Program-made: the position numbers and the translations under genes | Notes under the pieces: generated by a model | What the model was told of the DNA's origin: nothing | The model's database searches: none | What the model saw: the letters and a program-made list of their open reading frames with translations, nothing else | Source of the DNA: Methylogaea oryzae | GTDB lineage: Bacteria > Pseudomonadota > Gammaproteobacteria > Methylococcales > Methylococcaceae | Assembly: GCF_019669985.1 (NCBI RefSeq) | Contig: NZ_AP019782.1 | Span: forward strand, 798,501-862,500 | Direction of reading: 5' to 3' | Length of the DNA stretch: 64,000 nt | Shown here: one piece after another, positions 13,708 to 52,918 of the stretch | Layout of the letters: each line of letters opens with the position of its first letter | Numbering within the stretch: position 1 is the stretch's first letter

Positions 13708-15495
13708 CTATCGCACCTTCACCTGCAACAACTCCTTGCCGTCCTGGTCCATCACGTGGGTGGAGCAGGCCAGGCAGGGATCGAAGCTGTGCAGGGTGCG
13801 GAGAATTTCCAAGGGCTCTTCCGGCTTGGCCACCTGGGTGTTCATCAGCGCGGCTTCGAAAGCGCCGATATTGCCTTTCGGGTCGCGCGGCGAGCCGTTC
13901 CACGTGGTGGGCACGATGCACTGGTAGTTGTCGATCTTGCCGTCCTTGATCTTGATCCAGTGGCCCAGGGCGCCGCGCGGCGCTTCCGTGGTGCCCACGC
14001 CCTGGGCTTCCTTGGGCCAGGTGCTGGGATCCCAACGGCTCACGTTGGCGGTGGTCAAGTCGCCGGCCTTGATGTTTTTCACCAGCTTGTCCTGGAAGTG
14101 CCTCATCTGGTGGGCGCAGTACTGCGCTTCCAAGCCGCGGGCGGCGGTGCGGCCCAGGGTGGAGAACAGCGCCGTCACCGGCAGGCCCAATTCGCCCAAG
14201 AGCTGGTCCACCGGCTCCTTTATGGCCGGCATCCCCTGGGCGTAGCCGATGATGTAGCGGGCCAACGGGCCCACTTCCATGGCGTGGCCTTTCCAGCGCG
14301 GCGCCTTGATCCAGGAATACTTGGCGCTTTCGTCCAGGTTTTCGATGTGGGTCTTGGTGCCTTTGGTTTTATGGCCCAGGGCGAAGTGCGGCTCGGTGAC
14401 GCCGTCGAAAGGATGCAGGCCCTGGTCGTCGTTGCTGTAGCGGTACCAGGAATGGGTGACGAATTCCTGGATTTGCGCCGGGTCCTTCAGGTCTACCTCG
14501 TGCACTTCCTTGAGGTTGCCGCCGATGATGGCGCCGCGCGGCAGGATCAAATTGCCCGCCGAGCGGTCGTTGGCCTTTTCCGGAATGTCGCCGTAGCTGA
14601 GCACGTTGGTGGCCGACAGGCCGCCGCCGTATTGCCAATCCTTGTAGAAGGAAGCGATGGCTTTCAGGTCGGGCAGATACACCTGCTCAATAAACTCAAT
14701 TGTTCGGTCGATGATGGACGACACCAGATTCAACCGTTCCATGTTCACCGCGCCGCCGGCCCCGTCCACATTGATGGCGCAGGGCACGCCGCCCACCAGC
14801 CAGTTGGGGTGGGGGTTTTTGCCGCCGTAGACGGCGTGGATCTTGACGATGTCCTTCTGGAAATCCAGCGCTTCCAGGTAATGAGCCACGGCCATCAGGT
14901 TGGCTTCCGGCGGCAGCTTGTAGGCCGGGTTGCCCCAGTAGCCGTTGCTGAACGGCCCCAACTGGCCGCTTTCCACGAACTTCTTCAACCGGCTGGCGAT
15001 GTCCTGGAAATAGCCGGGCGAGGAATTGGGCCAGGGCGATATGCTCTGGGCCAGGGCGGAAGTCGCCTTGGGATCGGCCTTGAGGGCGCTGACCACGTCC
15101 ACCCAGTCCAGGGCGTGCAAATGGTAGAAATGCACCAAGTGGTCGTGGGCCTGCAGCGTCAACTGCATGATGTTGCGGATGCTGTTGGCGTTTTCCGGTA
15201 TCTGTATGCCCAGCGCGTCTTCCACCGCCCGCACCGAGGTGAGGGCGTGGGTGCCGGTGCAGACGCCGCAGATCCTTTCGGTGAAGGCCCAGGCGTCGCG
15301 CGGATCGCGGCCCTTGAGGATGATTTCCAGGCCGCGCCACATGGTGCCGCTGGATACGGCGTTGCGGATGACGTTGTTCTCGTCGATGTTGACCTCGCAA
15401 CGCAGGTGGCCTTCGATGCGGGTCACCGGGTCCACCACGATGCGTGTGCCTTCGTCGTTGAGGGTGTAGCCGTTGGGGGTTTGGATGACGGTCAT
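13708..15495 (-). CDS. hupL: Uptake [NiFe] hydrogenase large subunit HupL (group 1d)
   Basis: This 595-residue subunit carries the NiFe active site that oxidises H2 on the periplasmic face of the inner membrane. The N-terminal metal motif [10 protein letters not shown] (about residue 74) and the C-terminal DPCLACSTH supply the four nickel cysteines. After that His a 15-residue tail ([15 protein letters not shown]) remains, to be cut by HupD. The length and sequence fit the O2-tolerant group 1 enzymes, in agreement with the six-cysteine signature in HupS. The start at 15495 follows hupS by 88 bases that contain a short palindromic repeat. Confidence 0.97.
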
Positions 15496-15539
15496 GGGTT
15501 GTTCTCTTCGTTATTCATTATTATTTGTCGCCCCTTTCC

Positions 15540-15567
15540 GGTCCCCTCTCCTTTCGGGAGAGGGAGC
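15540..15567. repeat. Short palindromic repeat between hupS and hupL
   Basis: A single CCCTCTCC...GGGAGAGGG hairpin lies in the gap between hupS and hupL. It belongs to the same repeat family as the elements at 5448, 12040 and 13557. Confidence 0.65.
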
Positions 15568-15583
15568 CGGAAGAGTGGCGCAA

Positions 15584-16654
15584 CTACAGCGATTTCTCCG
15601 GCTTCTTCAGCACCGAAGCCGCCGCGTGCGCCGCTATGGCCGCGCCCATGGCGCCGGCCGCCGCCAAACCCACTTGGTCGGCGTTGCTTTCCACGCCGAA
15701 CAGGTTGAGGTCGGTGACGCGGTCGTAGAACGAGCCCTTGTCCCAGAAGTTTTCTTCGGAACAGCCCAGGCAGCCGTGGCCGGATTGGATGGGGTAGGAG
15801 GTGCCTTCGTTCCAGCGCACCGTGGAGCAGGCGTTGTAGGTGGTCGGTCCCTTGCAGCCGACTTTGTACAAGCAGTGGCCCTGGCGCGCCGCGTCGTCGT
15901 CCCAGTGTTCGACGAACTGGCCGGCGTCGAAGTGGGGCCGGCGGTAGCATTTGTCGTGGATGCGCTGGCCGTAGAACATCTTCGGCCGGCCCTGGGCGTC
16001 CAGTTCCGGCAGCTTGTCGAAAGTCAGCAGATAGGTGATGACGCCGGTCATCACTTCGGCGATGGGCGGGCAGCCCGGCACCTTGACGATGGGCTTGTCG
16101 GTGATGACTTTGTGGATGGGCGTGGCCTGGGTGGGATTGGGCTTGGCCGCCTGCACGCAGCCGTTGGAGGCGCAGGAGCCCCAGGCGATCACCGCCATGG
16201 CGTCCTTGGCGGCGTAGCGCAGCTGTTCCACGAAGGGCTTGCCGCCGACGATGCAGAACATGCCGTCCTCGTTGAGGGGCGGGTTGCCTTCCACCGCCAG
16301 GATGTAGCGGCCCTTGTACTTCCGGATGGTGTTTTCCAGCGCCGCTTCCGCCTGGTGGCCGGCGGCGGCCATCAGGGTGTCGTCGTAGTCCAGGGACAGC
16401 ATGGACAGTACCACGTCCTTGGCCAGGGGATGGGCGGAACGGATGAAGGATTCCGAGCAGCAGGTGCATTCCAGCCCGTGCAGCCACAGCACCGGCGTGC
16501 GCGGCTTGGTTTCCATGGCATGGGCGATTTGCCCGACGAATTGCGGCCCCAAGGCCATGGCCGAGGCGGTGAGACTGCAATATTTGAGGAAACTGCGCCG
16601 GGTGATGCCCTGGCGGCGCATCACGGCATAAAAACTGTCCTGCTGGTCGCTCAT
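15584..16654 (-). CDS. hupS: Uptake [NiFe] hydrogenase small subunit HupS (group 1d)
   Basis: The 356-residue precursor has a Tat signal ([13 protein letters not shown], residues 19-31) and iron-sulfur ligands for three clusters. A C-terminal hydrophobic anchor (residues 325-348) fits docking to HupC. The motif [10 protein letters not shown] carries the extra cysteine of the six-Cys proximal cluster, and the second one is in [14 protein letters not shown]; both mark O2-tolerant group 1d enzymes. The start at 16654 (MSDQQDS) follows a G-rich Shine-Dalgarno (AGGGGGGAGA) and places the Tat motif at the usual distance, so an upstream start adding 28 codons is rejected. It is the first gene of the hup-hyp operon, with a sigma-54-like site upstream. 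Confidence 0.96.
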
Positions 16655-16972
16655 TCTCCCCCCTGGGTTATTGCTGTTTTTGTCGTCGCGGCGGCCGGCT
16701 TGAACCGGTTGGTGGCGAGTGAACAAAGAACGTGCCATGCCAATTCCTTGCGGTTTATGCGGGATTGGCGGGGGAGGGCGGTGTCTGGACTGTTACAAAA
16801 TGGTGTCGTTGGTCATACATGCTACAGTTGGTCTTACCCCGGAAAATCAGTGCCATACGCCTGGGCGGCTTGTTCGGGGCGCGGGGAAAGAGCGGCATCG
16901 GTGCAAACTTCTTTCCAATACCTCGCGATTTGCACTAAAGTGAATTTCCTATAAAACCTGATGGGAATAGCG
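16655..16972. other. Divergent intergenic region between two hydrogenase operons
   Basis: These 318 bases separate hupS from the second hydrogenase operon. They hold the candidate sigma-54 site near hupS and a lower-G+C stretch just before the rightward operon (TATAAA at 16950-16955, too close to the start to be a convincing -10). I see no gene, repeat or clear operator. Both operons must be controlled from here. Confidence 0.6.
16722..16737 (-). promoter_or_regulatory. Candidate sigma-54 promoter for hupS
   Basis: Read leftward, TGGCACG (16737-16731), four bases, then TTGTT (16726-16722) matches the -24/-12 consensus TGGCACG-N4-TTGCW except for the C of the -12 GC. It lies about 68 bases before the hupS start, which is a plausible leader. 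Sigma-54 control of hup operons through HupR/HoxA-type activators is known in other proteobacteria, but no such activator gene is in the window. Confidence 0.4.
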
Positions 16973-17914
16973 ATGACCTCCCTGTTGTGGCTGCAAACCG
17001 GCGCTTGCGGTGGAGACACCATGGCTTTGTTGTGCGCTGACAGCCCTTCGGTGGAGCAGTTGGCCACCGATTACGGCATCGAGTTGCTGTGGCATCCGTC
17101 CTTGTCGGCGCAACCGGCCGGGCATTTGGACCGGGTGTTGCGGCGCATATTCGACGGCGAGCTGGCGCTGGATATCCTGTGTGTCGAAGGCAGCATCATG
17201 ACCGGACCCAACGGTTCCGGCATGTACGATCCCTACGGCGATCGTTCCAAAATGAGCCTGGTGCGCGAGTTGGCGGACCAAGCCGGCTTCGTCGCCGCCA
17301 TGGGCACTTGCGCCGCTTTCGGCGGAGTGCACGCCGCGCCGCCCAATCCGACCGACTGTCTGGGATTGCAATACGACGGCCAAGCGCCGGGGGGGCTGTT
17401 GCCGCCGGAGTGGCGCTCCGGCCGCGGCCTGCCGGTCATCAACGTGGCCGGCTGTCCCGCCCATCCCAATGCCATGACCAAGACGCTGGCCATGCTGGCT
17501 TCCGGCCTGCCGCTGGAGTTGGACGCCCTCAACCGGCCGAAGGCGTTTTTCAGCAGCCTGGTGCACCAGGGCTGTACTCGCAACGAGTACCACGAATACG
17601 ACGTGGAGGACACCGAGTTCGGCGAGCGCGGCTGCTTGTTCTTCAACCTGGGCTGTCGCGGCCCGTCCACCCTGGCGGTATGCAATACCGAGCTGTGGAA
17701 CGGCAGCAACAGCAAAACCCGCGCCGGCGTGCCCTGTTTCGGTTGCACTTCGCCGGATTTCCCCCGCAGCCACGATTTGTTTCGCACGGAGAAAATCGGC
17801 GCCATTCCGCTGGATCTGCCCTTGGACGTGCAGCGCGCCGGCTACATGGCCTACAAGAGCCTGGCTCACGAAGCGGCGCCGCAACGGGTGCTGGACAAGG
17901 CCATGGAGCCCTGA
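16973..17914 (+). CDS. Cytosolic [NiFe] hydrogenase small subunit, group 2-like
   Basis: This 313-residue electron-transfer subunit has no Tat signal or membrane anchor, so it is cytosolic. It starts MTSLLWLQTGAC, closely resembling cyanobacterial HupS and actinobacterial-type small subunits. The proximal cluster motif is C12-G-G-D15 where standard enzymes have CxxC. Remaining cluster ligands are visible in GTCAAFGG, VAGCPAHPN, HQGCTRN, GCRGPST and VPCFGCTSPDF. I chose the ATG at 16973 because GGGAA sits correctly upstream and the protein then begins like its relatives; an ATG four codons earlier lacks a ribosome site. It is the first gene of a four-gene operon. Group 2a, 2c or 1h membership needs a tree. 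Confidence 0.92.
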   Translation: MTSLLWLQTGACGGDTMALLCADSPSVEQLATDYGIELLWHPSLSAQPAGHLDRVLRRIFDGELALDILCVEGSIMTGPNGSGMYDPYGDRSKMSLVRELADQAGFVAAMGTCAAFGGVHAAPPNPTDCLGLQYDGQAPGGLLPPEWRSGRGLPVINVAGCPAHPNAMTKTLAMLASGLPLELDALNRPKAFFSSLVHQGCTRNEYHEYDVEDTEFGERGCLFFNLGCRGPSTLAVCNTELWNGSNSKTRAGVPCFGCTSPDFPRSHDLFRTEKIGAIPLDLPLDVQRAGYMAYKSLAHEAAPQRVLDKAMEP

Positions 17915-17915
17915 C

Positions 17916-19442
17916 ATGTCGCGCCGGATCGTGAACATCGACTTGAACCGGGTGGAAGGCGACCTGGAATTCCAACTGGAGCTGGAAGGCAGCACCGTGG
18001 CGGATGCCCGCTGCATCGGCACGATGTACCGGGGGTTCGAGCAGATCATGATCGGCCGCGCGCCGAAAGACTCCCTGGTTATCACGCCGCGCATCTGCGG
18101 CATTTGCGGCACGGCGCATTTGTATGCGGCGGTGCTGGCCCTGGAGCAGATCGGCAAGATCGCGGTGCCGCCCAACGCCAGCCGCATCCGCAACCTGTGT
18201 TTGATGGCGGAGACGGTGCAAAGCGACCTGCGCCAGTCGTTTTTGTTCTTCACCGCCGATTTTTGCCACGCCCGTTACGCCGGCCACCCGCTTTATTCCC
18301 AGGCGCTGGAAGCCTTCCAACCGTTCCAGGGCTGGGCGCACCGGGGCACGCTGGAGCATTCGCGCCACATGGTCAAGATCGTCGCCATCTTCGGCGGCCA
18401 GTGGCCGCATTCGTCCTACATGTTGCCCGGCGGTGTCACGACGCCGCCTACCGCCAAGCGCATCGTCGATTGCCAAGCGGTGCTCAACCCGTTGACCCGC
18501 TGGTTCGAGGACAAAATCATCGGCGGCGATTTGGACGACTGGCTGGCGCTGGCGACGGCGGACGAGCTGTGGCGCTGGCTGGAGCGGAGCAAAGCCGCCG
18601 ACGCCGCCGTCGGCTTGCTGACGCGCCTGGCGCGGTCCCTCGACTTGCACCGGCAGGCGCCGGGGACGCCCCATATGCTCAGCTACGGCGCCTATTGCGA
18701 CCCGCAGCATTGGCAGGAAGACGGCCGGCAGTTATGGCGTTCCGGTTTTCTCGACGGCAACGTCGGCGAAGTGGTGCCCTTCGACCAGCAGGCCATTGCC
18801 GAACACGTGGCGTATTCCTGGTTTTTGCCGTACGCGGGCGGGCGCCATCCCTGGCAGGGACAGACCGTGCCCGACTATCAGCCCCATTCCGGCCGTTATA
18901 CCTGGGCCAAGGCACCGCGGTACCGCGACCATGTGGTGCAAACCGGACCCTTGGCGGAACTGCTGGTCGACGGCGAGCCGCTGGTCAGCGCCCTGTATCG
19001 GGACGAAGGCGGCAGCACTTGGCTGCGGCAGTTCGCCCGCCTGCGGCGCACCGGTATATTGCTGGGGCAAATGCGCGAAACCCTGCGGGAATTGGCGGCA
19101 GCGCTGGACCAGCCCCATTATTTGGCGCCGCCCGACGCCTCTTTGCCCGACGGCGAAGGGTACGGCCTGGTGACCGCCGCCCGCGGCGGCTTGGGCCATT
19201 GGCTGCGGGTGGAGGACGGGGTCATCGCCCAGTATCAGGTGGTGACGCCGACGGCGTGGAACGCGTCTCCCAAGGACAGCGCCGGCCGCCACGGGCACTG
19301 GGAGCAAAGCCTGTTGGGCGTTACCCTGCAGGATCCGGACGATCCTTTGGAAATCGGCCACATCATCCGCTCTCACGACCCTTGCCTGGTGTGCACGGTG
19401 CACGTTCTGGGTTCGGATCGCCGCCTGTCCCTGCGGCCTTAG
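17916..19442 (+). CDS. Cytosolic [NiFe] hydrogenase large subunit, group 2-like
   Basis: This 508-residue NiFe-site subunit begins one base after the small-subunit stop. The N-terminal metal motif is RICGICGTAH (about residue 62) and the C-terminal motif is DPCLVCTVH. Twelve residues follow the final His (VLGSDRRLSLRP), the type of tail removed by a maturation protease, and a protease gene comes next. The best-studied H2 sensors (HupV/HoxC, group 2b) have no such tail, so this enzyme is processed like a catalytic hydrogenase. Its genetic link to a cyclic-di-GMP enzyme nevertheless suggests a sensory role; this is inference. Confidence 0.92.
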   Translation: MSRRIVNIDLNRVEGDLEFQLELEGSTVADARCIGTMYRGFEQIMIGRAPKDSLVITPRICGICGTAHLYAAVLALEQIGKIAVPPNASRIRNLCLMAETVQSDLRQSFLFFTADFCHARYAGHPLYSQALEAFQPFQGWAHRGTLEHSRHMVKIVAIFGGQWPHSSYMLPGGVTTPPTAKRIVDCQAVLNPLTRWFEDKIIGGDLDDWLALATADELWRWLERSKAADAAVGLLTRLARSLDLHRQAPGTPHMLSYGAYCDPQHWQEDGRQLWRSGFLDGNVGEVVPFDQQAIAEHVAYSWFLPYAGGRHPWQGQTVPDYQPHSGRYTWAKAPRYRDHVVQTGPLAELLVDGEPLVSALYRDEGGSTWLRQFARLRRTGILLGQMRETLRELAAALDQPHYLAPPDASLPDGEGYGLVTAARGGLGHWLRVEDGVIAQYQVVTPTAWNASPKDSAGRHGHWEQSLLGVTLQDPDDPLEIGHIIRSHDPCLVCTVHVLGSDRRLSLRP

Positions 19443-19446
19443 TTCT

Positions 19447-19911
19447 ATGCCCGCCGGCCGACATATCATCTGCTTCGGCAACGCGCTGCACGGCGACGAC
19501 GGTTTCGGGCCGTACGTTTACGAGCGCTTGCGGGAGCACGCCTGGCCGGACGATGTGCGTTTGTTCAATGCCGCCGTCGCCGGCCTGGATGCGTTGCCCT
19601 GGCTGGAAGACTGCCGCGTGGCGATTCTGGTGGACGCCCTGGCCGGCGGCGGCCGTCCCGGCACGGTGCGCCTGTTCCGGCCGGAACAAATCGACAGTCC
19701 GCAAGCGGATTTGTCCGGACACGCCGCCGGCGTGCCTTATTTGCTGAGGGCCGCCGCCGCCCTGCACGGCACGGCCCCGGAGATCCTGGTGGTCGGCGCC
19801 GAGGTCGAGGCGGTCACGCCTTTCGCTCCCGGATTGACGCCGGCTCTGAGGCGGGCGGCCGAGCGCGTGGCGCGGCTGATCCGGCGGCGCTTGATCGGGG
19901 TGGGGCCGTGA
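19447..19911 (+). CDS. Hydrogenase maturation protease for the group 2-like enzyme
   Basis: This 154-residue protein of the HyaD/HybD/HoxW endopeptidase family probably cleaves the C-terminal tail of the large subunit encoded four bases upstream. Family motifs are FGNALHGDDGFGPYV (metal-binding acidic residue), LVDALAGGG (Asp) and SGHAAGVPYLLRAA (His). Its stop overlaps the start of the next gene (GTGA), coupling it to the Rieske-GGDEF-EAL protein. Confidence 0.88.
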   Translation: MPAGRHIICFGNALHGDDGFGPYVYERLREHAWPDDVRLFNAAVAGLDALPWLEDCRVAILVDALAGGGRPGTVRLFRPEQIDSPQADLSGHAAGVPYLLRAAAALHGTAPEILVVGAEVEAVTPFAPGLTPALRRAAERVARLIRRRLIGVGP

Positions 19912-22526
19912 GGGACACCGTCAGCCGGGTGCGCGTCGAAGGCTTGGCTTTTCTGCAGGACGCCGATCCGCCCCGTTGGTCGGGACATGTGTCGTTGTTG
20001 GGGCAGGCGCGTCCGCTGCACTTGTTGATTTTCGCCACCGCCCAAGGTTACGCGGCGGTGGCCGCCGCCTGTCCCCACGAGGGTTACAACCTCGCCCAAT
20101 GCCCTTTGCAAGGCGACGATACCTTGGTTTGTCCTGCTCACGGCATGCGCGTCGGCCTGCAAGCGAGGGGATTTCCGGTTGATCGGCAAGGGGAGGCGTT
20201 TTTCGTCGCGGCCTCGGCTTTGCCGTCGCCCCTATGCGAAATCGCCGAGCATTCGAACTCCGATTCGGCGGCGGGCACCATCGCGCAGCTCGACAATGAA
20301 ATCGGCCAATTGACCCTGGCCAATTTCAAAAAGGAAAAGCAGATTCTCGCCATCAGCCGCACCATGGAGGCGATGCTGGAGGAGGCTGAGCGGCAGAAGC
20401 TCCAACTCAAGGACGTGGCGTCCAAACAGCAAGCCTTGGCCCGTTTCGTCAATCGGGTTATGGACGGCATGGACGATGTGCTGCTGGTGATCGACACCGA
20501 GGGGCGCATCAAGCAAGCCAACACCGCCGCCCTGCGCGAGCTGGATTTTACGGCGGAAGAATTGCTGGAATCGCCGTTCGACGATTTGCTTTCCGCCGCC
20601 GACCGGGAAAAGCTCTCGCTCCGTTTGCCGGCCCTGCCGTGGGCGGTACGATCCGTGGCGCTGGAAACCGTTCGCTTGGGTAACGGCTATGCCGCCGAGC
20701 ACAGCCTGCACGGCCGGGGCGGGACGATGGCGGGGATTTATCTGCTCAAGGGCAATTTGCTCCATTCCGAGCAAGGCAAGCTGGAAGGCGCCGTTATCAC
20801 CGCCAGCAATATCAGCTTGCTCAAAGATCGCGAAATGAAGCTGCGTTTGAGCGCCAAGGTATTCGAAAACAGCGGCGAAGCCATATTCATCACCGACGCC
20901 CAAGCCAATATCCTCGACGTCAACACCGCGTTTACCACCATCACGGGGTATGAAAAAGGCGAGGCCCGCGGCCGCAACGTGCGTTTTTTGAAATCGGGCC
21001 GCCACGACCACGATTTTTATGTGCGCATGTGGCAGGAGCTGGTTGCCAAGGGCAATTGGCGCGGCGAAATTTGGGATAGGCGCAAAAACGGCCAGGCTTT
21101 CCCTATCCTGCTGACCATCAACGCGCTGATGGACGACGAGGGCTTGGTGAGCCACTACGTCGCCATTTTTTCCGACATCAGCAGCCTCAAGCAAACCGAG
21201 CAGAAGCTGGAGCAGTTGGCTTATTACGATGCCCTGACATCGCTGCCCAACCGCTTTCTGTTCAAGGACCGTTTGGAACACGAATGCCTGCTGGCGCAGC
21301 GCAATCACACCCGCCTGGCGGTGTTCTTCATCGATCTGGACCGTTTCAAGAACGTTAACGATACCCTCGGCCATTGGGCCGGCGACCGCTTGCTGCAGGA
21401 GGTGGCGGGGCGGATCAAGGTCTGCGTGCGCCAGTCCGACACGGTGGCGCGCTTGGGCGGCGACGAGTTCACCGTCATTCTGTCGGGCATCGAGGAGGCC
21501 GGCGACGCGGCGGATGTCGCGCAAAAAATCATTCGTGCCTTGGAAGTGCCGTTGGACATCAATCGCCAGCAAATCTACATCAGCGCCAGCATCGGCATCG
21601 CCCTGGCGCCGGAAGACGGCACCGATTTCACCACGCTGACCAAACACGCCGATGCCGCCATGTACGCCGCCAAGGCGAAAGGCAAGGGCACGTTCCAATA
21701 TTTCGAAGCGCACATGAACGTCGAGGCGCAGCGGCGCATCGAGTTGGAAACCAAGCTGCGCCGCGCTTTGGAAAACGGGGAGTTCGTGCTGTGTTATCAG
21801 CCGAAAGCCGATGTCGGCTTGTCGGGCATCACCGGAGCCGAGGCCTTGGTGCGCTGGCGGCATCCCGCCGACGGCATGATCGCGCCGGATCGGTTCATTC
21901 CCGTCGCGGAGGAAACCGGGCTGATTTATCCCTTGGGCAACTGGATACTGCGTACCGCCTTTTTACAGGCCAAGGCCTGGGCCGCGCGCTTTCCGGGATT
22001 CCGCCTGGCGATCAATCTGTCGGCCCGGCAGTTGTTGGCGGACGAATTTATCGCCGACCTGGCCGACATTCTGCGGGAAACCGGCGTATCGCCCCAATCC
22101 ATCGAGCTGGAAATCACCGAAAGCCTGGTCATGCACGACATCGATACGGCGACGCGACGCTTGCGGTCCATCACCGCACAGGGCATCCGCATCGCCATGG
22201 ACGATTTCGGCACCGGATATTCGTCGTTGTCTTATTTGCAGAAGCTTCCCATCGACATCCTCAAGATCGACCGTTCCTTCATCCAGGAATACACCGGTCC
22301 GCAGGATGTGGAGCGCGCCGCGCTGATCAAGGCGATCATCGCCATGGGGCGCAGCCTCAATATGCGGGTGGTGGCGGAAGGCGTGGAAACGGCGCAGCAG
22401 TTGGAGCTATTGAGCCGCCATGCGTGCGACGAAATCCAAGGGTATCTGCTGTCGCCGGCCATCTCGGCGGAGCAACTGGAATGCTACTGCGCGGATTTCC
22501 CGCAGCGGTCCAAGGCCGTGTCTTAA
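19908..22526 (+). CDS. Rieske-PAS-PAS-GGDEF-EAL cyclic-di-GMP enzyme linked to hydrogenase
   Basis: This 872-residue multidomain protein is translationally coupled to the protease gene (GTG start, GTGA overlap). Its order is a Rieske [2Fe-2S] domain (1-105; ligands C55-P-H57 and C75-P-A-H78), a helical probably coiled-coil linker (125-180), PAS 1 (182-300), PAS 2 (315-428), GGDEF (436-600) and EAL (610-865). The cyclase motif GGDEF (517-521) and the inhibitory RxxD site (R508-D511) are intact. The phosphodiesterase motifs are also intact (EAL 645-647, INLSARQ, LEITES, DDFGTGYSS, EGVET), so both making and degrading c-di-GMP are possible. No membrane segment is seen. Free-standing Rieske proteins accompany some group 1h and 2a hydrogenases as electron acceptors; here that module is fused to a signalling output, which suggests H2-derived electrons set the enzyme's state. 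Confidence 0.9.
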   Translation: MRDTVSRVRVEGLAFLQDADPPRWSGHVSLLGQARPLHLLIFATAQGYAAVAAACPHEGYNLAQCPLQGDDTLVCPAHGMRVGLQARGFPVDRQGEAFFVAASALPSPLCEIAEHSNSDSAAGTIAQLDNEIGQLTLANFKKEKQILAISRTMEAMLEEAERQKLQLKDVASKQQALARFVNRVMDGMDDVLLVIDTEGRIKQANTAALRELDFTAEELLESPFDDLLSAADREKLSLRLPALPWAVRSVALETVRLGNGYAAEHSLHGRGGTMAGIYLLKGNLLHSEQGKLEGAVITASNISLLKDREMKLRLSAKVFENSGEAIFITDAQANILDVNTAFTTITGYEKGEARGRNVRFLKSGRHDHDFYVRMWQELVAKGNWRGEIWDRRKNGQAFPILLTINALMDDEGLVSHYVAIFSDISSLKQTEQKLEQLAYYDALTSLPNRFLFKDRLEHECLLAQRNHTRLAVFFIDLDRFKNVNDTLGHWAGDRLLQEVAGRIKVCVRQSDTVARLGGDEFTVILSGIEEAGDAADVAQKIIRALEVPLDINRQQIYISASIGIALAPEDGTDFTTLTKHADAAMYAAKAKGKGTFQYFEAHMNVEAQRRIELETKLRRALENGEFVLCYQPKADVGLSGITGAEALVRWRHPADGMIAPDRFIPVAEETGLIYPLGNWILRTAFLQAKAWAARFPGFRLAINLSARQLLADEFIADLADILRETGVSPQSIELEITESLVMHDIDTATRRLRSITAQGIRIAMDDFGTGYSSLSYLQKLPIDILKIDRSFIQEYTGPQDVERAALIKAIIAMGRSLNMRVVAEGVETAQQLELLSRHACDEIQGYLLSPAISAEQLECYCADFPQRSKAVS

Positions 22527-22542: not shown

Positions 22543-23037
22543 TTAGGGCATGCCCGCCAGTGCGTCCCACGACTCGACGGTGGCATTTGCCAGTAACCGC
22601 TCGGTAAACGCCAGCGCCGCCTCGTAATGGCGGCGGGCTTGCGGCGAAACCTCCTCGCCCAGCTCAAACCTCTCTCCCCGTATGCAAAGCACGTAAGCCG
22701 GCGGCGGCGGGCGATGCAGGACTTGCTCGAATACCGGCAGCAGCGCTTCCGGCGGCAGGGCGTGGGTGCTGTGGCCGATGGCCTGGGGTTGGGGACGGTA
22801 GAAATTGAAGGGCGCCGGCGTGCCGTGGCCGGCGTCGATGAACAGCACCAGCTGCCGCTCGGCCATGTCCAGCACGTTTTCCACTTGCAGCTGGAAATCT
22901 TCGATCAGCTCGTAGCGGTCGGAGGCGGCGCCCGCTTCCAGGCGGCGGGCGATTTCCCGCAGCAGCAAGGGGCCTAAGGCATCGTCGCCGCGGCTTTCGT
23001 TGCCGACGGCGAAGATGAGACAAGGAGCGTGGGGCAT
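22543..23037 (-). CDS. hoxW: HoxH maturation protease HoxW
   Basis: This is a 164-residue endopeptidase for the C-terminal tail of HoxH. Motifs are FAVGNESRGDDALGPLLL, LFIDAGHGT and HSTHALPPEALL, giving the acidic and His ligands of the family; GxxxRGDDxLG is typical of HoxW-type proteases. The start at 23037 (MPHAPCL) is preferred because upstream in-frame sequence antiparallels hoxH. It is the last gene of the hox operon and ends 16 bases from the convergent Rieske-GGDEF-EAL gene. Confidence 0.9.
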   Translation of the reverse strand: MPHAPCLIFAVGNESRGDDALGPLLLREIARRLEAGAASDRYELIEDFQLQVENVLDMAERQLVLFIDAGHGTPAPFNFYRPQPQAIGHSTHALPPEALLPVFEQVLHRPPPPAYVLCIRGERFELGEEVSPQARRHYEAALAFTERLLANATVESWDALAGMP

Positions 23038-23108
23038 GGCGGGTGGGCGGTCCCGGCTTTCGAGAAGGCTGATATTTTCCGCCTGGCGGCGGTCGGTTCC
23101 TGAGCGGG

Positions 23109-24575
23109 TTACAAGCCGCGCGACAGTTCGTGTACCTGTTGGCCGGCGGCATCCACCAGTTCCACCTTGAGCGGCATTTTGCCCAGGGCGTGGGTGGCGC
23201 AGGACAGGCAGGGATCGAAAGCGCGGATCGCCACTTCGATGTGGTTGAGCAAGCCTTCGGTGATTTCGTGGCCGTGCAGATAGCGCTTGGCCACGTGGCG
23301 GATGGCTTCGTTCATGGCCTGGTTGTTGTTGGTGGTGGAAACGATCAGGTTGCACATGGTGACCAGGTCGTCATCGTCCACCCGGTAGTGGTGGAACAGG
23401 GTGCCGCGCGGCGCTTCGATGACGCCGATGCCTTCCCGCTTGCGTTCGCCGGTGGCCATGAGCTCGGTGCCGAGGATGTCGTCGTCGTGCAGCAGTTCCT
23501 TGATGCCTTCCACGGCGTGGAGCATTTCGATCATGCGCGTCCAGTGGAAGGCGAGGGAGGCGTGGATCGGGCTGCCGCCGGCGTAGTCCATGAAATCGCG
23601 CCGTTCGTGGTCGGCGAAAGCGGTGGGGATGCTGTCGCAGTTTTGCACGCGGGCCAGCGGCCCCACTTTGTACCAGCCGTCTTCCTTGCCCAGCGCTTTG
23701 ATGAAGGGGAACTTCATGTAGCTCCAAGGACGCACTTCTTCTTCGATGGTCTGGTAGTAGTTGTTGCAGTCCACCCCGTCGAAAATCAGCTTGCCGTCGG
23801 CGTCGCGGGCGCGCAGCTTGCCGTCGTACAAATCCATGGCGCCTTCGTGGCCGACGATGGACAGCATGTTGGAACGGCATAGCCCGAAGCTGTTGTAGAG
23901 GGCGGGGTTGGCGTCGTGCAGTTTTTTCACCAGGTGCACCGCGTCGCGGCTCCAGGCGATCATGGTGTAAACGTCTTTCAGCAGCTCGTCGCGCTCGGCG
24001 ACGGTCAGGGATTTGTTGACGCCGCCGGGGATGGCGCCGGTGCCGTGGATGCGCTTGCCGGCGGTCATGCGGATCACTTCCTGGCCGAACTTGCGCAGCA
24101 GCACGCCCTGCTTGGCGGTTTCCGGGTGGGCTTCCGCCACGCCGACGATGTTGCGCTTGGCCACGTCCGAGTCGAAGCCGAACAGCAAATCCGGCGAGCA
24201 CAGGTGGAAGAAGTGCAGGGCGTGGGATTGCATGATCTGGCCGAAGTGCATCAGCCGGCGGATTTTTTCCGCGGTGGGCGTCAGGTGGTGGGCGCCGACG
24301 ATGGGGTCCATGGCCTTGGAGGCCGCCAGGTGGTGGGACACCGGGCAGATGCCGCACAAACGCTGCACCATCACCGGCACCTCCCAGTAGGGGCGGCCCT
24401 GGATGAAGCGTTCGAAGCCGCGGAATTCCACGATGTGCAAGCGCACCTGGTGGATTTTGTTGTCCTCGTCCAGCAGCAGGGTGACCTTGCCGTGGCCTTC
24501 CACCCGAGAAACGGGGTCGATGGCGACGCGGCGCAGGGTTTCGGGGTGTTCGGCGGTTTCCAGGTGGTAAGTCAT
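23109..24575 (-). CDS. hoxH: NAD-linked [NiFe] hydrogenase large subunit HoxH
   Basis: This is the 488-residue catalytic subunit of the soluble bidirectional group 3d hydrogenase. The nickel motifs are RLCGICPVSHH (about residue 63) and DPCLSCATH. A tail of 26 residues after that His (ALGKMPLKVELVDAAG and on) is removed by HoxW. No export signal is present. With HoxFUY it couples H2 to NAD(H) in the cytoplasm, oxidising H2 under aerobic conditions or releasing it when reductant is in excess. Confidence 0.97.
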   Translation of the reverse strand: MTYHLETAEHPETLRRVAIDPVSRVEGHGKVTLLLDEDNKIHQVRLHIVEFRGFERFIQGRPYWEVPVMVQRLCGICPVSHHLAASKAMDPIVGAHHLTPTAEKIRRLMHFGQIMQSHALHFFHLCSPDLLFGFDSDVAKRNIVGVAEAHPETAKQGVLLRKFGQEVIRMTAGKRIHGTGAIPGGVNKSLTVAERDELLKDVYTMIAWSRDAVHLVKKLHDANPALYNSFGLCRSNMLSIVGHEGAMDLYDGKLRARDADGKLIFDGVDCNNYYQTIEEEVRPWSYMKFPFIKALGKEDGWYKVGPLARVQNCDSIPTAFADHERRDFMDYAGGSPIHASLAFHWTRMIEMLHAVEGIKELLHDDDILGTELMATGERKREGIGVIEAPRGTLFHHYRVDDDDLVTMCNLIVSTTNNNQAMNEAIRHVAKRYLHGHEITEGLLNHIEVAIRAFDPCLSCATHALGKMPLKVELVDAAGQQVHELSRGL

Positions 24576-24603
24576 GGCAGTGGTCCGACTAATACGTTAA
24601 CGG

Positions 24604-24660
24604 GTAGGAGCGGGTTTTCCCGCGATGCTTAGACTGGTCGCGGGCAAGGCCTGCTCCTAC
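24604..24660. repeat. REP-like palindrome between hoxY and hoxH
   Basis: An imperfect inverted repeat starts GTAGGAGCGGG and ends CCTGCTCCTAC, with an inner CCCGCGA...TCGCGGG stem. This is a common REP-type sequence in gammaproteobacteria. It lies in the 105-base gap between hoxY and hoxH and would form a stable RNA hairpin within the operon transcript. Confidence 0.75.
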
Positions 24661-24680
24661 AGGGAATTTAAAGGGAAACC

Positions 24681-25232
24681 TCAGTCATAGTGCAGCAGTT
24701 CGTGGGGCAGGTTGGGTTCCTTGCCGGCCAGAAGGTCCGTCAGCACTTTCCAAATGGTGTCGCCGGAGGGCGGGCAGCCGGGCATGAAGTAATCGACCTT
24801 TACCACTTCGTGGATGGGGTGCACCTTGTCCAGCGGCAGGGGTAATTCCGGGTCGTTGGGAATCAGGCCGTTATGCAGGCCGGGGCTGGTGTGGTAGACC
24901 TCTTCCAGGATCATGGGCAGCGACAACGGGTTTCTTTGCGCCGGCAGGCCGCCGTTGATGGCGCAGGCGCCCACGGCGATGAGGATGTCGCACTGCTGGC
25001 GGAATTCCCGCAGCACGTGGACGTTTTCCGCGTTGCACAAACCGCCTTCGATGAGGCCGATGTCGCACTTGCCGGCATGCTTGATGTCGGTGAGGGGCGA
25101 GCGGTCGAATTCCACCAGTTCCACCAGGTCGAACAGCCGTTCGTCGATGTCCAGGAAGGACATATGGCAGCCGAAACAGCCGGCCAGGGAGGTGGTGGCG
25201 ACTTTGAGCTTTTTCTTTTCCGGTGCGTTCAC
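24681..25232 (-). CDS. hoxY: NAD-linked hydrogenase small subunit HoxY
   Basis: This is a 183-residue small subunit carrying a single proximal [4Fe-4S] cluster. Ligands are in LAGCFGCHMSF, AVGACAINGG and FMPGCPPSGD. It lacks the second half found in group 1 and 2 small subunits, as is usual for group 3d. It starts one base after the hoxU stop and passes electrons to HoxU/HoxF. Confidence 0.96.
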   Translation of the reverse strand: MNAPEKKKLKVATTSLAGCFGCHMSFLDIDERLFDLVELVEFDRSPLTDIKHAGKCDIGLIEGGLCNAENVHVLREFRQQCDILIAVGACAINGGLPAQRNPLSLPMILEEVYHTSPGLHNGLIPNDPELPLPLDKVHPIHEVVKVDYFMPGCPPSGDTIWKVLTDLLAGKEPNLPHELLHYD

Positions 25233-25233
25233 G

Positions 25234-25950
25234 TCAGTCCTCCTTGGCGGGCAGGCGGGAATCGACGTAATCGGCCGCCGGTTTCTTGTCGAACGTCCGC
25301 TGGCCGATGGGCACGGCGAAGCCGACCCGCTTTTTCAGGATCACCCCCACGGGGCATACCTTAGCGGCCATGTCGTCGGCGGAGAAGTCCGTGTCGGCCA
25401 GGCGATGGGAGGCGGCGTTGACCGTGAGGTGGGTGCCGATGCCGCGTCCGCCCAGGGCGAACACGTTCTTGCCGTCCACGTCGCGGCTGGCGCGTACGCA
25501 CAGCGAGCAGAGGATGCAGCGGTTGAACTCCAGCAAATAGTCCGGGTGCGAGGCGTCCACCGGCCGGTTGGGGAAAAAGTGGTCGTAGTGGGGCGTCAGC
25601 ATGTGCAGCTGGTAGGCAGTGGCCTGCAGCTGGCAGTCGCCGCTCTTCTCGCAGGAGGGGCAGAAATGGTTGCCTTCCACGAACAGCATTTGCGTCAAGG
25701 AGCGCCGCTCGTCGTTCAGCTCCTGGGTATCGCTTTCCACCGTCATGCCGGCTTCGGCGCGGCGGGTGCAGGAAGCGGTTTGCCGGCCGTCGATTTTCAC
25801 CGTGCACAGCTTGCAGGAGCCGCTGGGCGGGAACTCCGGATGGTGGCACAGATGCGGAATGTAAGCGCCGGCGTCCAGGGCCGCCTGGATGACGGTTTGG
25901 CCGTCCTCGAAAGGAATTTCCTTGCCGTCCAGAGTGAAGGTTTTGCTCAT
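25234..25950 (-). CDS. hoxU: Diaphorase iron-sulfur subunit HoxU
   Basis: This 238-residue NuoG-like subunit relays electrons between HoxY and HoxF. It has an N-terminal plant-type [2Fe-2S] domain (HHPEFPPSGSCKLC, then ASCTRR), a His/Cys-liganded cluster (NHFCPSCEKSGDCQL) and a [4Fe-4S] motif (RCILCSLCVRASR, with a further Cys in KVCPVG). It overlaps hoxF by four bases. Confidence 0.96.
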   Translation of the reverse strand: MSKTFTLDGKEIPFEDGQTVIQAALDAGAYIPHLCHHPEFPPSGSCKLCTVKIDGRQTASCTRRAEAGMTVESDTQELNDERRSLTQMLFVEGNHFCPSCEKSGDCQLQATAYQLHMLTPHYDHFFPNRPVDASHPDYLLEFNRCILCSLCVRASRDVDGKNVFALGGRGIGTHLTVNAASHRLADTDFSADDMAAKVCPVGVILKKRVGFAVPIGQRTFDKKPAADYVDSRLPAKED

Positions 25951-27743
25951 GGGGTTTCTCCGGTGGCTTCTTCCTTGAAGTGGGCGCCGCTGTCGTCGCG
26001 GCCGGTCATGCGCCGCGCCGGTCCCAAGGCCCAGTCCAGGTTGAAGGCGGGGGTGAAGTCTTTATGCTGCAAGCGTTTTTCGTAAGCCGCCGGGAACTTG
26101 GCGATGGTGTCCAACACCGGGTTGCAGGCGGTGTGGCCCAGGCCGCAGTGGCTCATGGACAACAGCAGCTGGTTGAGCTTTTTGATTTCCTCGAAGTCGT
26201 AGGGCGAGCCGTGGCCGTTGTGCAGCTTGTCCATCAGGTTGCTCTGCAGGGACGTTCCGACCCGGCAGGGCGTGCAGAAGCCGCAACTTTCGTGGGCGAA
26301 GAAATGGGCGAAGTTGCGCGCCACTTCGAACATGTCCCGGCTCTGGTCGAACACCATGAAGGCGCCGGCGGTGGGGATGTCCTCGAAAGCGATGCGCCGG
26401 CCGAATTCGGCGGAGGAAATGCACACCCCGGAAGGTCCGCTCACCTGGGCAGCCTGGGTATCCCGCGCGCCGCAATCTTCCAGCACCTGGGCCACCGTCA
26501 CGCCGAAGGGGTATTCGTAAATGCCGGGCCGCTCGCAATCGCCGGATACCGACAGCAGCTTGGTGCCGGCGGATTTTTCCGTGCCGATGGCTTGGTACCA
26601 GGCGCCGCCGTGCAGGGCGATCAAGGTGGTGGCGGCGAAAGTCTCCACGTTGTTGACCACCGTCGGCTGCTGCAAATAGCCGTGGGTGACGGGGAAAGGC
26701 GGGCGGTTGCGCGGGTTGCCGCGCTTGCCTTCCAGGGATTCGATCAGGGCCGACTCCTCGCCGCAGATGTAGGCGCCGGCGCCCAGGTGGATTTCGATGT
26801 CGAAATCGAAGCCGGCTTTGCCGAGGATGCCGCTGCCCAGCAGATTGGCGTTGCGGCGGCGCTGCAGGATTTCGTTGAGCGGATCCAGCAGATAGCGGTA
26901 CTCGCCGCGCAAATACAGCATGCCCAGCTTGGCGCCGATGGCGTAGCCGCACAGGGTCATGCCTTCGAATACCTTGTCGGCATAGGAGGTGAGCAGCACC
27001 CGATCCTTGAAAGTGCCGGGCTCGCCTTCGTCGGCGTTACACACCACGTAATGGGCTTCGCCCGGGGCGTTGCGGCAGGCTTCCCACTTCAGGCCGGTGG
27101 TGAAGCCGGCGCCGCCGCGGCCGCGCAGGTTGGAGGCTTTGACCTCTTCCACCAGCGCTTCGGGGGGCTTGCTCAGGGCCGCGCGCAGGGCCTCGCCCGG
27201 TTGCAGCTCGCTGCCCAGCAGCTTGTCCTTGCGGCGGATGTTGTCTTCCACCTGGAAAAATTCGGCCGGCCATTGGGCCAGCGGCGTTTGGTTCTTCACC
27301 AGCTCGGCGATGGCGTCCACTCGTTCCGCCGTCAGGCGGGTGGCGGCGCGGTTGTTGACCAGCAGCGCCGGCCCCTGGTCGCACATGCCGGTGCAGGAGG
27401 TGGTGTCCACGCTCACCAAGCCGTCTTCGGAAACCTTGCCGCGCTCGATCCACAACTGGCGGCACAACCGCTCCAGCAAGTCCATATTGCCCAGCATGCG
27501 GTCGGTGATGTTGTCGGAGAACAGGATGCGGTAGCGGCCTACCGGCTCCAGGTAGAAAAACGAGTAGAAGGTTGCCGTGCTTTCGATTTGGGCGCGGGTG
27601 ATGCCTAGCTTGGCCGCCAGATGGTCGATGGCGTCGGCGTGGATATGGCCGAAATGCTCCTGCGTTTCGCGCAGTATCTGCATCAGCTTGGTGGGATTGT
27701 GCCCGTAACGCTCAAGGATCGGGTCGATGTATTCGCTGTGCAT
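25947..27743 (-). CDS. hoxF: Diaphorase NAD/FMN subunit HoxF
   Basis: This is a 598-residue flavoprotein that exchanges electrons with NAD. The N-terminal 160 residues form a NuoE-like thioredoxin fold with a reduced set of cysteines (SCTGMCDQGP), replacing a separate hoxE. A NuoF-like part follows, with GRGGAGFTTGLKWE (FMN), GEESALIESLEGKRG (NADH) and a C-terminal [4Fe-4S] motif (ESCGFCTPCRVGT, plus Cys near ACNPVLD). It is the first gene of hoxFUYHW. The 194 bases upstream separate it from a deacetylase gene in the same direction, and no clear promoter is recognised there. Confidence 0.97.
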   Translation of the reverse strand: MHSEYIDPILERYGHNPTKLMQILRETQEHFGHIHADAIDHLAAKLGITRAQIESTATFYSFFYLEPVGRYRILFSDNITDRMLGNMDLLERLCRQLWIERGKVSEDGLVSVDTTSCTGMCDQGPALLVNNRAATRLTAERVDAIAELVKNQTPLAQWPAEFFQVEDNIRRKDKLLGSELQPGEALRAALSKPPEALVEEVKASNLRGRGGAGFTTGLKWEACRNAPGEAHYVVCNADEGEPGTFKDRVLLTSYADKVFEGMTLCGYAIGAKLGMLYLRGEYRYLLDPLNEILQRRRNANLLGSGILGKAGFDFDIEIHLGAGAYICGEESALIESLEGKRGNPRNRPPFPVTHGYLQQPTVVNNVETFAATTLIALHGGAWYQAIGTEKSAGTKLLSVSGDCERPGIYEYPFGVTVAQVLEDCGARDTQAAQVSGPSGVCISSAEFGRRIAFEDIPTAGAFMVFDQSRDMFEVARNFAHFFAHESCGFCTPCRVGTSLQSNLMDKLHNGHGSPYDFEEIKKLNQLLLSMSHCGLGHTACNPVLDTIAKFPAAYEKRLQHKDFTPAFNLDWALGPARRMTGRDDSGAHFKEEATGETP

Positions 27744-52018: not shown

Positions 52019-52918
52019 TTATTTCGCCAGCACGACCCGGTTGCGGCCTTCGTTCTTGGCTTGGTACAGGGCTTGGTCGGCGCGGGCGACCAGGTGGCGT
52101 TCCGATTCGCCCGAGGCCAAGGTGGCCACGCCGACGCTCACGGTAACGTTCACGTCGCCCTGTTCGGTGGGGCAGGGCATGATTTCCACTTGGTGGCGGA
52201 TGCGTTCGGCCAGCGTGGCGGCGCCCTCCGTGGCGGTGTCGGGCGCCAGTATCATGAATTCTTCTCCGCCGTAGCGATAGACGAGATCGCTGCCGCGCAC
52301 GACGTGTTTGATGCATTGGGTGACGGTGATCAATACCTGGTCGCCGCAGGGATGGCCGTGGGCGTCGTTGACCTGCTTGAAGTGGTCCAGGTCCACGGCG
52401 ATCAGGGACAGCGGCGCGAATTGGCGGCAGGCGACTTTCCATTCCCGCGCCAGACCCGATTGCAGCGCCGCGCGGTTGCCGACGCCGGTGAGGGAGTCGG
52501 TATGGGCGTCCACCAGCGCTTGGTGGTATAGCAGGGTGTTGCGCAAGGGATAGATCAGCTGGGTCAGCAGCCCTTCCAGCTGTTTGAGTTCGAAGTCGGC
52601 ATGGGGATACTGCCGCGAGGCGGTAAATTCGCCCAGCGATTCCCCTTCCAGCAGCAGGTTGTAACTGGCCCGGTAGGTGCCGGCATGGCCGCCGGATAGC
52701 CGCATGTTCAGGCGCGGTAAGCTGTATTCGAAGCCGTCCAGCAAGCCGATGGGAGCGACCAAGTCGAAAAACAGCGGCACCAACTGGTCGGTAATCAGCG
52801 TGGTTTGCAAGGCGCTGGACAGGTCTACCGGCGTCGCCGCTTTCGCCGGTGTCGGCGTGAGTTCGGCATACTTGCTGCGTCGGGGGAATGACACGATATT
52901 TCCATATTGCTGGTTCAT
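52019..52918 (-). CDS. Diguanylate cyclase (GGEEF)
   Basis: This is a 299-residue cytosolic protein. The N-terminal 130 residues have no family I recognise, and no membrane segment is seen; a C-terminal GGDEF domain follows (about 135-299). The active-site motif is YRYGGEEFMIL and an inhibitory RxxD (R-G-S-D) lies five residues before it, so a feedback-inhibited c-di-GMP synthase is expected. The start at 52918 (MNQQYGN) is a guess among several in-frame candidates; upstream sequence is arginine/proline-rich and unlikely to be coding. No EAL partner is adjacent. Confidence 0.88.
   Translation of the reverse strand: MNQQYGNIVSFPRRSKYAELTPTPAKAATPVDLSSALQTTLITDQLVPLFFDLVAPIGLLDGFEYSLPRLNMRLSGGHAGTYRASYNLLLEGESLGEFTASRQYPHADFELKQLEGLLTQLIYPLRNTLLYHQALVDAHTDSLTGVGNRAALQSGLAREWKVACRQFAPLSLIAVDLDHFKQVNDAHGHPCGDQVLITVTQCIKHVVRGSDLVYRYGGEEFMILAPDTATEGAATLAERIRHQVEIMPCPTEQGDVNVTVSVGVATLASGESERHLVARADQALYQAKNEGRNRVVLAK

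Follow-up and report, generated by a model that had tools for sequence, protein, structure and literature searches.

The 64-kb window of Methylogaea oryzae DNA analyzed here (contig NZ_AP019782.1, positions 798,501 to 862,500), part of a 4.02-Mb genome in a single contig, carries at positions 16973-22526 on the + strand an operon of four genes. These encode a [NiFe]-hydrogenase small subunit (16973-17914), a large subunit (17916-19442), a hydrogenase maturation protease of the HycI/HupD type (19447-19911), and an 872-residue output protein with a GTG start (19908-22526), separated by gaps of 1, 4 and -4 bases. A first-pass annotation had described these four tightly spaced genes from the letters alone, and the open reading frames (ORFs) and Pfam matches (Oxidored_q6 and NiFe_hyd_SSU_C in the small subunit, NiFeSe_Hases in the large subunit, HycI in the protease, and Rieske, PAS, GGDEF and EAL in the output protein) confirm the operon as described. 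The host is very probably a methane oxidizer, since a search of its genome for the methane/ammonia monooxygenase A family gives two matches.

The small-subunit ORF opens at an ATG at position 16961, and the ATG at 16973 agrees with the start in relatives. The protein starts right at its first cluster motif, leaving no room for a signal peptide. All cluster ligands are kept save the fourth ligand of the proximal cluster, where Asp15 (17015-17017) replaces Cys. The large subunit has the NiFe ligand motifs CGIC and DPCLVC, the latter within the L2 motif SHDPCLVCTVH, and continues for 12 residues beyond it, an extension that fits with the protease gene in the operon. Among solved structures, the closest to the small subunit are 7uur/7utd (E 6e-85) and the closest to the large subunit 7uus/7utd (E 1.5e-96); we take all three to be the uptake hydrogenase Huc, of group 2a.

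In the output protein, the Pfam Rieske match (E 1e-5) lies over the cut-off. An AlphaFold2 model of residues 1-444, with a mean predicted local distance difference test (pLDDT) score of 86.5, contains a beta domain (residues 7-101), a single helix of 66 residues (122-187; 20271-20468) that is probably a coiled coil, PAS1 (191-301; 20478-20810), a linker helix and PAS2 (318-424; 20859-21179); with a predicted template-modeling score of 0.44, the arrangement of these domains is uncertain. The order Rieske-PAS-PAS-GGDEF-EAL proposed earlier is correct in that all of these domains are found, and had overlooked the helix between the Rieske domain and PAS1. Because a Foldseek search with this model matched mostly PAS proteins, with DosP best, the Rieske domain (residues 1-103; 19908-20216) was modeled and searched alone. 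It then gave a pLDDT of 91.4, and each of the 50 Protein Data Bank rows shown is either a Rieske ferredoxin or a Rieske oxygenase, with a best E of only 0.008 and a template-modeling score of about 0.5. Its motif CPH...CPAH places C-x-H and C-x-x-H ligands in the Rieske-like modeled fold; the four ligands, Cys55, His57, Cys75 and His78, are invariant among 20 aligned domains, all 20 of which have a Pfam Rieske match, and a profile built on them matches Rieske proteins by sequence (best 4.8e-6). Among the 15 loci first found the ligands are complete in 14, the exception being a Rieske-kinase (L055:11971-14058) that has lost the second ligand pair and was left out of the 20-domain set. We note an extra cysteine within the ligand loop, Cys65 (20100-20102), which is kept in at least 90% of the 20 members.

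The GGDEF domain (residues 438-593; 21219-21686) has its GGDEF motif and RxxD I-site intact, as the EAL domain (616-850; 21753-22457) has its catalytic residues, and the claim that a Rieske domain and a c-di-GMP (cyclic di-GMP) enzyme share one polypeptide thus stands, with ligand and active-site residues in place. Across the 36 GGDEF-EAL outputs compared from the window's hydrogenase clade (clade B, below), the I-site is present in all and 34 have the GGDEF motif. Their EAL catalytic residues are conserved barring scattered single losses in members without a Rieske domain and one row truncated where its contig ends. Two of the 21 Rieske-GGDEF-EAL proteins (L144:1461-4394 and L149:1408-4032) have SGDEF, with the first Gly changed to Ser, yet keep the EAL residues, which slightly favors hydrolysis as the main conserved activity. 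PAS2 has as its nearest solved relatives the PAS domains of MmoS (2.7e-22) and NifL (2.2e-15) that bind flavin adenine dinucleotide (FAD). An excerpt of a PAS survey names a Trp as the main FAD determinant, the criterion being the F-alpha Trp plus His and/or Asn (PMC10468136), and we took the position of this Trp from part of PMC9668731. The Trp is kept in 35 of the 36 outputs, Asn is replaced by Asp in 33, and the His is absent from all; a flavin in PAS2 is therefore possible, as the Trp is kept but Asn and His are not.

This gene arrangement is conserved. A large-subunit search of 251 genomes of the order yields 41 that match at E <= 1e-60, of which 33 have large subunits 59-100% identical and represent the type treated here; the other eight, at 34-49%, are of other types and include G001 and G212 (clade A) and G034 (group 2b). 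The DNA was read at all 33 loci with a large subunit at least 59% identical, the window included, and in each a protease gene and a GGDEF-EAL gene lie downstream of the large subunit. The small subunit is found at 32 of them; the contig of G158 starts only within the large-subunit gene. A lack of conserved linkage in related genomes, which would have refuted the first-pass annotation, is not what these loci show. The GGDEF-EAL protein has a Rieske domain in 21 of the 33 genomes (split in two frames in G107). A scan of named genomes adds at least 80 loci in several phyla, the named loci used here being the best 80 among more, and the closest named relatives of the large subunit among the matches listed belong to Methylobacter.

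To place the hydrogenase, a FastTree phylogeny was built on joined small and large subunits (113 rows), leaving out loci with no usable small or large subunit (L042, L063, L076, L102, L110, L169, L171 and L173) and duplicates (L143, L145-L147, L150, L151, L165 and L166); L174 was entered twice, so that counts for clade B refer to 50 distinct rows unless stated. Group 2a (25 rows) and group 2b (3 rows), labels that we partly presume, are separate from two further clades, A and B, which are joined at 0.993. Clade A has 32 rows from Desulfobacterota, Acidobacteria and others, and clade B, with support of 1.0, includes Methylococcales, Rhodocyclaceae, Vibrionaceae, SAR324 and others; within it the window hydrogenase groups with the Methylobacter tundripaludum locus (L035) with support of 1.0. 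The fourth proximal position is Asp in all 32 clade-A rows of the alignment; of the 51 rows of clade B, in which one locus appears twice, 44 have Asp and 7 Glu. It is Asn in 25/25 group-2a rows, and Cys in both group-2b rows with letters there. HofK, which we take to be of group 1h, has Asp. The His ligand of the distal cluster is kept in clades A and B and in group 2b, and is Gln in 24 of the 25 group-2a rows. L2 reads SHDPCLVCTVH in all 51 clade-B rows (with the same locus counted twice), and the large subunits of group 2b have no C-terminal extension (3/3 rows), as against 12 residues in the window protein.

The first-pass annotation was correct about a c-di-GMP enzyme as partner in the window, an arrangement found in all 33 genomes, and had overlooked that relatives couple the same hydrogenase to histidine kinases. 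In clade B the outputs are Rieske-GGDEF-EAL (22, one of them split), GGDEF-EAL (15), kinase (4), protease-kinase fusion (3), Rieske-kinase (3), degenerate Rieske-kinase (1), separate Rieske and kinase (1) and one that is cut, and a signaling gene is present at all 49 readable loci. Clade A has 21 kinases, 4 GGDEF proteins, 1 GGDEF-EAL protein and 6 undecided cases, with a signaling gene at 26/26 readable loci; among the undecided, L060 and L068 have 19-bit GGDEF matches without a GGDEF motif at contig ends. No signaling gene was seen within 3 kb downstream at any of the 23 non-reference group-2a loci, each with 1.5-10 kb of downstream DNA. NifU-Rieske genes adjoin group-2a enzymes, with one such gene at one of these 23 loci (L111).

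The Rieske domain occurs in three settings: fused to GGDEF-EAL proteins, at 3 loci fused to kinases, and encoded by a gene of its own. The last is found in SAR324 (L044:815-6692), where a stand-alone Rieske gene of 112 residues lies between the protease and kinase genes as an unfused counterpart of the window arrangement. In a tree of the helix-PAS segment discussed below, the L044 kinase is sister to the Rieske-GGDEF-EAL proteins (0.994), as expected if adjacent genes fused and the output was exchanged; the Rieske-kinases stand apart from the Rieske-GGDEF-EAL proteins and group with other kinases. The deep nodes of clade B in the hydrogenase tree are weak (0.35, 0.38 and 0.65), so a single gain of the Rieske domain followed by losses and several gains fit equally. 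In three further loci (L047:11226-14630, L049:11511-14633 and L058:8381-11542; by Pfam in L049 only) the protease is fused to the N terminus of a PAS-histidine kinase, and a single polypeptide would both mature and read the hydrogenase. In the other genome of the window's genus (G001; L031:1-3266) the enzyme belongs to clade A and not to the window's type, and the kinase behind it is truncated where the contig ends. That the congener has a clade-A enzyme instead suggests replacement or horizontal gain of the window-type hydrogenase.

What the clade-B outputs have in common is the helix-PAS module. Residues 126-312 of the window protein, comprising the helix and PAS1, match the outputs of clade B irrespective of the output domain these carry, and after them the HoxJ-like kinases that go with group 2b; the description of the output as PAS-PAS, right in that the PAS domains are real, had missed this common module. 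A helix-PAS profile scores the window's own protein at 238.7 bits, with the next PAS in that genome at 40.5. In G034, which has a group-2b enzyme, the HoxJ-like kinase ranks first with 63.4 bits (next 34.6); the best on the Cupriavidus necator megaplasmid pHG1 is HoxJ at 40.4 bits (next 30.5), and the best on pEP1 is a HoxJ-like kinase at 45.6 bits. Judged by these sequence scores, the likeness to HoxJ is firm only for G034. An hhalign comparison with the N termini of three HoxJ proteins reaches 98.5% across columns 18-183. At E<=1e-22 the profile identifies 33 of the 251 genomes, a set identical to the 33 with the hydrogenase; the threshold was chosen by us, proteins of this kind went into the profile, the genomes are relatives of one another and the same 251 are assumed in both scans, and for these reasons the co-occurrence is not an unbiased discovery. 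The helix alone finds no match above 4.2 bits in clade-A outputs, and the shared module is therefore claimed for clade B only. The N-terminal part of one clade-A GGDEF output (L092:3405-4205) matches the pre-kinase parts of L061, L071, L075 and L084 at 17-25 bits, a hint that clade A may have a shared receiver module of its own. Two genomes have a second helix-PAS copy away from the hydrogenase, G044 (G044:C76:160840-161397) and G072 (L180:3731-6742, - strand). The copy in G072 is on an ORF of 1003 residues that resembles, by eye, a hybrid kinase with receivers, and may be another output of this proposed H2 sensor. Near it (L180:7868-9810), a reverse-transcriptase-like ORF beside one of 331 residues resembles a retron-type defense pair, again by eye.

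The position in the tree supports assignment of the hydrogenase to the group 2c kind, as its sub-clade B, the label resting on this placement together with excerpts of PMC4853749 and PMC12810054. According to its entry in HydDB, group 2c is 'diguanylate cyclase-linked (putative)' with its role undetermined (PMC5037454, in part). The portion of PMC4853749 consulted finds 2c mostly in aquatic sulfate reducers and methylotrophs, names M. tundripaludum, whose enzyme it takes as 2c, as the best match of its own sequence, and gives the L2 consensus as SFDxCLVCTVH; the window's L2 is one position off this consensus, as is that of a Thiomargarita sequence that the same source assigns to 2c. A passage of PMC12810054 records 2c in Methylobacter. 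The 2c affinity suspected earlier is thus supported by grouping with the M. tundripaludum locus, away from 2a and 2b, and by GGDEF/EAL linkage, and the window differs in the Rieske domain fused before the PAS domains and in SHD rather than SFD in L2. In the wider clade kinases are frequent partners too, clade A having 21 kinases against 5 GGDEF outputs. Part of PMC12727194 lists, near [NiFe] hydrogenases, clusters with PAS-GGDEF-EAL genes and, apart from these, clusters with NifU-Rieske genes. In the open-licence literature, scanned mostly as listings, we found no description of a Rieske domain fused to a hydrogenase-linked GGDEF-EAL protein, or of the shared helix-PAS module and the exchange of GGDEF-EAL for kinase outputs, most subscription papers lying outside that literature. 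Group 2c as a kind is already known, and the Rieske fusion, the shared helix-PAS module and the kinase exchange are, as far as that literature goes, additions made here.

Membership in group 2b is ruled out by the 12-residue extension and a tree position away from HoxBC/HupUV: that system, HoxBC with the kinase HoxJ, shares a dimer with a His-ligated distal cluster and a partner PAS resembling the helix-PAS module, but its large subunit ends at L2, its proximal ligand is Cys and its signal goes to HoxJ, whereas here there are an extension and a protease, an Asp and a c-di-GMP output. Membership in group 2a is ruled out by the tree and by Asp rather than Asn at the proximal position. Huc with its partner HucE is alike in having what we take to be the closest solved structure and a Rieske protein as hydrogenase partner, and unlike in its Asn, in the Gln at the distal His, in a Rieske domain borne on a NifU protein and in the lack of a downstream signaling gene at the loci seen. 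The output protein is not HucE, as Pfam finds no NifU domain ahead of its Rieske domain, which the proteins of L177 and L178 do have. The FAD-PAS domains of MmoS and NifL are the nearest solved relatives of PAS2, and differ in that the flavin residues are partly kept here and the output is GGDEF-EAL. DosP, the best Foldseek match, presumably has the same PAS-PAS-GGDEF-EAL order; its input is O2 bound at heme, in place of the hydrogenase and Rieske domain seen here.

We favor, at a probability of roughly 60%, the reading that this is a group 2c H2-sensing hydrogenase wired through the Rieske domain to an enzyme that can both make and break c-di-GMP. In the cytosol the NiFe dimer, its large subunit matured by the operon protease, would oxidize H2, and electrons would run along the small-subunit clusters, including the proximal cluster with Asp for one Cys, to the N-terminal Rieske [2Fe-2S] cluster of the output protein, which would dock onto the hydrogenase by its Rieske and helix-PAS part. 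A redox change, perhaps relayed to PAS2, would then alter the geometry of the long helix and PAS dimer and so shift the balance between synthesis by GGDEF and hydrolysis by EAL. The domains, ligands, active-site residues, linkage, shared helix-PAS module and co-occurrence are evident from the sequences. For the Rieske domain as a hydrogenase partner the precedent is HucE, a Rieske-bearing NifU protein which, in the part of PMC6883350 consulted, is required for activity of the group 2a Huc in M. smegmatis. A more specific version is tentative, and we incline somewhat against it as a whole: electrons from H2 oxidation would pass through the fused Rieske domain to a flavin in PAS2 and set c-di-GMP activity, and the Rieske-helix-PAS input would be swapped between c-di-GMP enzymes and kinases, making one hydrogenase family a plug-in H2 input.

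Several points weigh against the favored reading. We infer the H2 input, electron transfer to the Rieske domain, docking, the conformational switch, its sign and its targets; H2 binding, electron flow and an effect on c-di-GMP are predictions of this reading. The Rieske domain is missing from 12 of the 33 order genomes and from three Vibrionaceae loci that keep the sensor, so it is not needed for the basic signal. Window PAS2 retains Trp375, has Asp390 for Asn and has no His, keeping one of three FAD-binding residues. The scores of HoxJ (40.4 bits) and the pEP1 kinase (45.6 bits) do not exceed those of background PAS domains (40.5 in the window's genome, 49.1 in G021), and HucE itself may, in the same excerpt, serve assembly instead of carrying electrons (PMC6883350).

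The last of these points also serves the strongest alternative, a mechanism in the style of HoxBC-HoxJ, in which H2 binding shifts the conformation of the hydrogenase, the helix-PAS module reads this shift, and the Rieske domain is structural, an assembly aid or a brake. It gains from the 12 genomes that retain everything except the Rieske domain, and from the helix-PAS module being the part common to clade-B outputs and resembling HoxJ. We nevertheless consider it unlikely, because structure alone would not require four ligands kept in all 20 aligned domains and at 14 of the 15 loci, and the Rieske domain persists as a gene of its own in SAR324 and, elsewhere, in fusions with two kinds of output. 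An ordinary uptake hydrogenase feeding metabolism through the Rieske domain, with c-di-GMP domains that track flux or are incidental, is improbable: although the closest solved relative is 7utd/7uur, presumably Huc, NifU-Rieske proteins occur in group 2a neighborhoods, and the C-terminal extension and protease are kept as in catalytic enzymes, the tree groups the window hydrogenase with kinase- and GGDEF-linked enzymes away from 2a, the operon has no cytochrome, quinone or nicotinamide adenine dinucleotide module, and every readable clade-B locus has a signaling output. Slightly more improbable still is a sensor of O2 or general redox state, in which the Rieske domain and a flavin in PAS2 set the output and the hydrogenase merely supplies electrons that keep them reduced; the kinship of PAS2 to redox-sensing MmoS and NifL and the near-universal FAD-determining Trp (excerpt of PMC10468136) speak for it, and the incomplete set of FAD residues and a second PAS domain that differs in the Rieske-kinase relatives against it. 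Chance adjacency to one of many GGDEF genes, of which the genome has 61 matches, is refuted by identical gene order in 33/33 genomes and by matching presence among the 251.

The targets of the output may be global or local, given those 61 GGDEF matches. As had been reported, an uptake hydrogenase (hup; 13708-16738, - strand, from the ORFs of the window) is divergent from the sensor operon and hox genes (- strand, at about 22543-27743; HoxH identified in a family search and the genes next to it by eye) are convergent with it. The further proposal that this placement marks a regulator of both is not supported and is rejected as a general one: among the 19 loci of clade B flanked by 8 kb or more on either side, another hydrogenase large subunit lies nearby in the window only, in a scan that may miss very distant types (the window's own HoxH scored only 35 bits), and a group-1-type large subunit over 750 bits is found in only 18 of the 33 sensor-bearing genomes. 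The single sigma-54 pattern used finds no site between hup and the sensor operon, and scans for sigma-70-like promoters and terminators gave no more matches than shuffles. In the H2-to-c-di-GMP interpretation first offered, the 2c affinity, the linkage and the single polypeptide are supported and the argument from placement is not; hup and hox are candidate targets only. We also note that an ORF of 598 residues in the hox cluster (25947-27743, - strand) resembles, by eye, a HoxE-HoxF fusion, and that a further GGDEF domain gene lies in the window at about 52037-52507 on the - strand (G000:C1:850537-851007).

Finally, group 2c carries an 'undetermined role' in the 2016 hydrogenase classification, and this family offers a compact, testable case. 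The output enzyme and its presumed electron acceptor form a single protein, so that single changes to the Rieske ligands would separate electron transfer from conformational sensing. The family also shows one type of hydrogenase serving both c-di-GMP enzymes and kinases as input. If the favored reading is true, a long-standing guess on how hydrogen is sensed becomes testable, and H2, a by-product of nitrogen fixation and fermentation, would be tied to the lifestyle decisions of methane-oxidizing bacteria.

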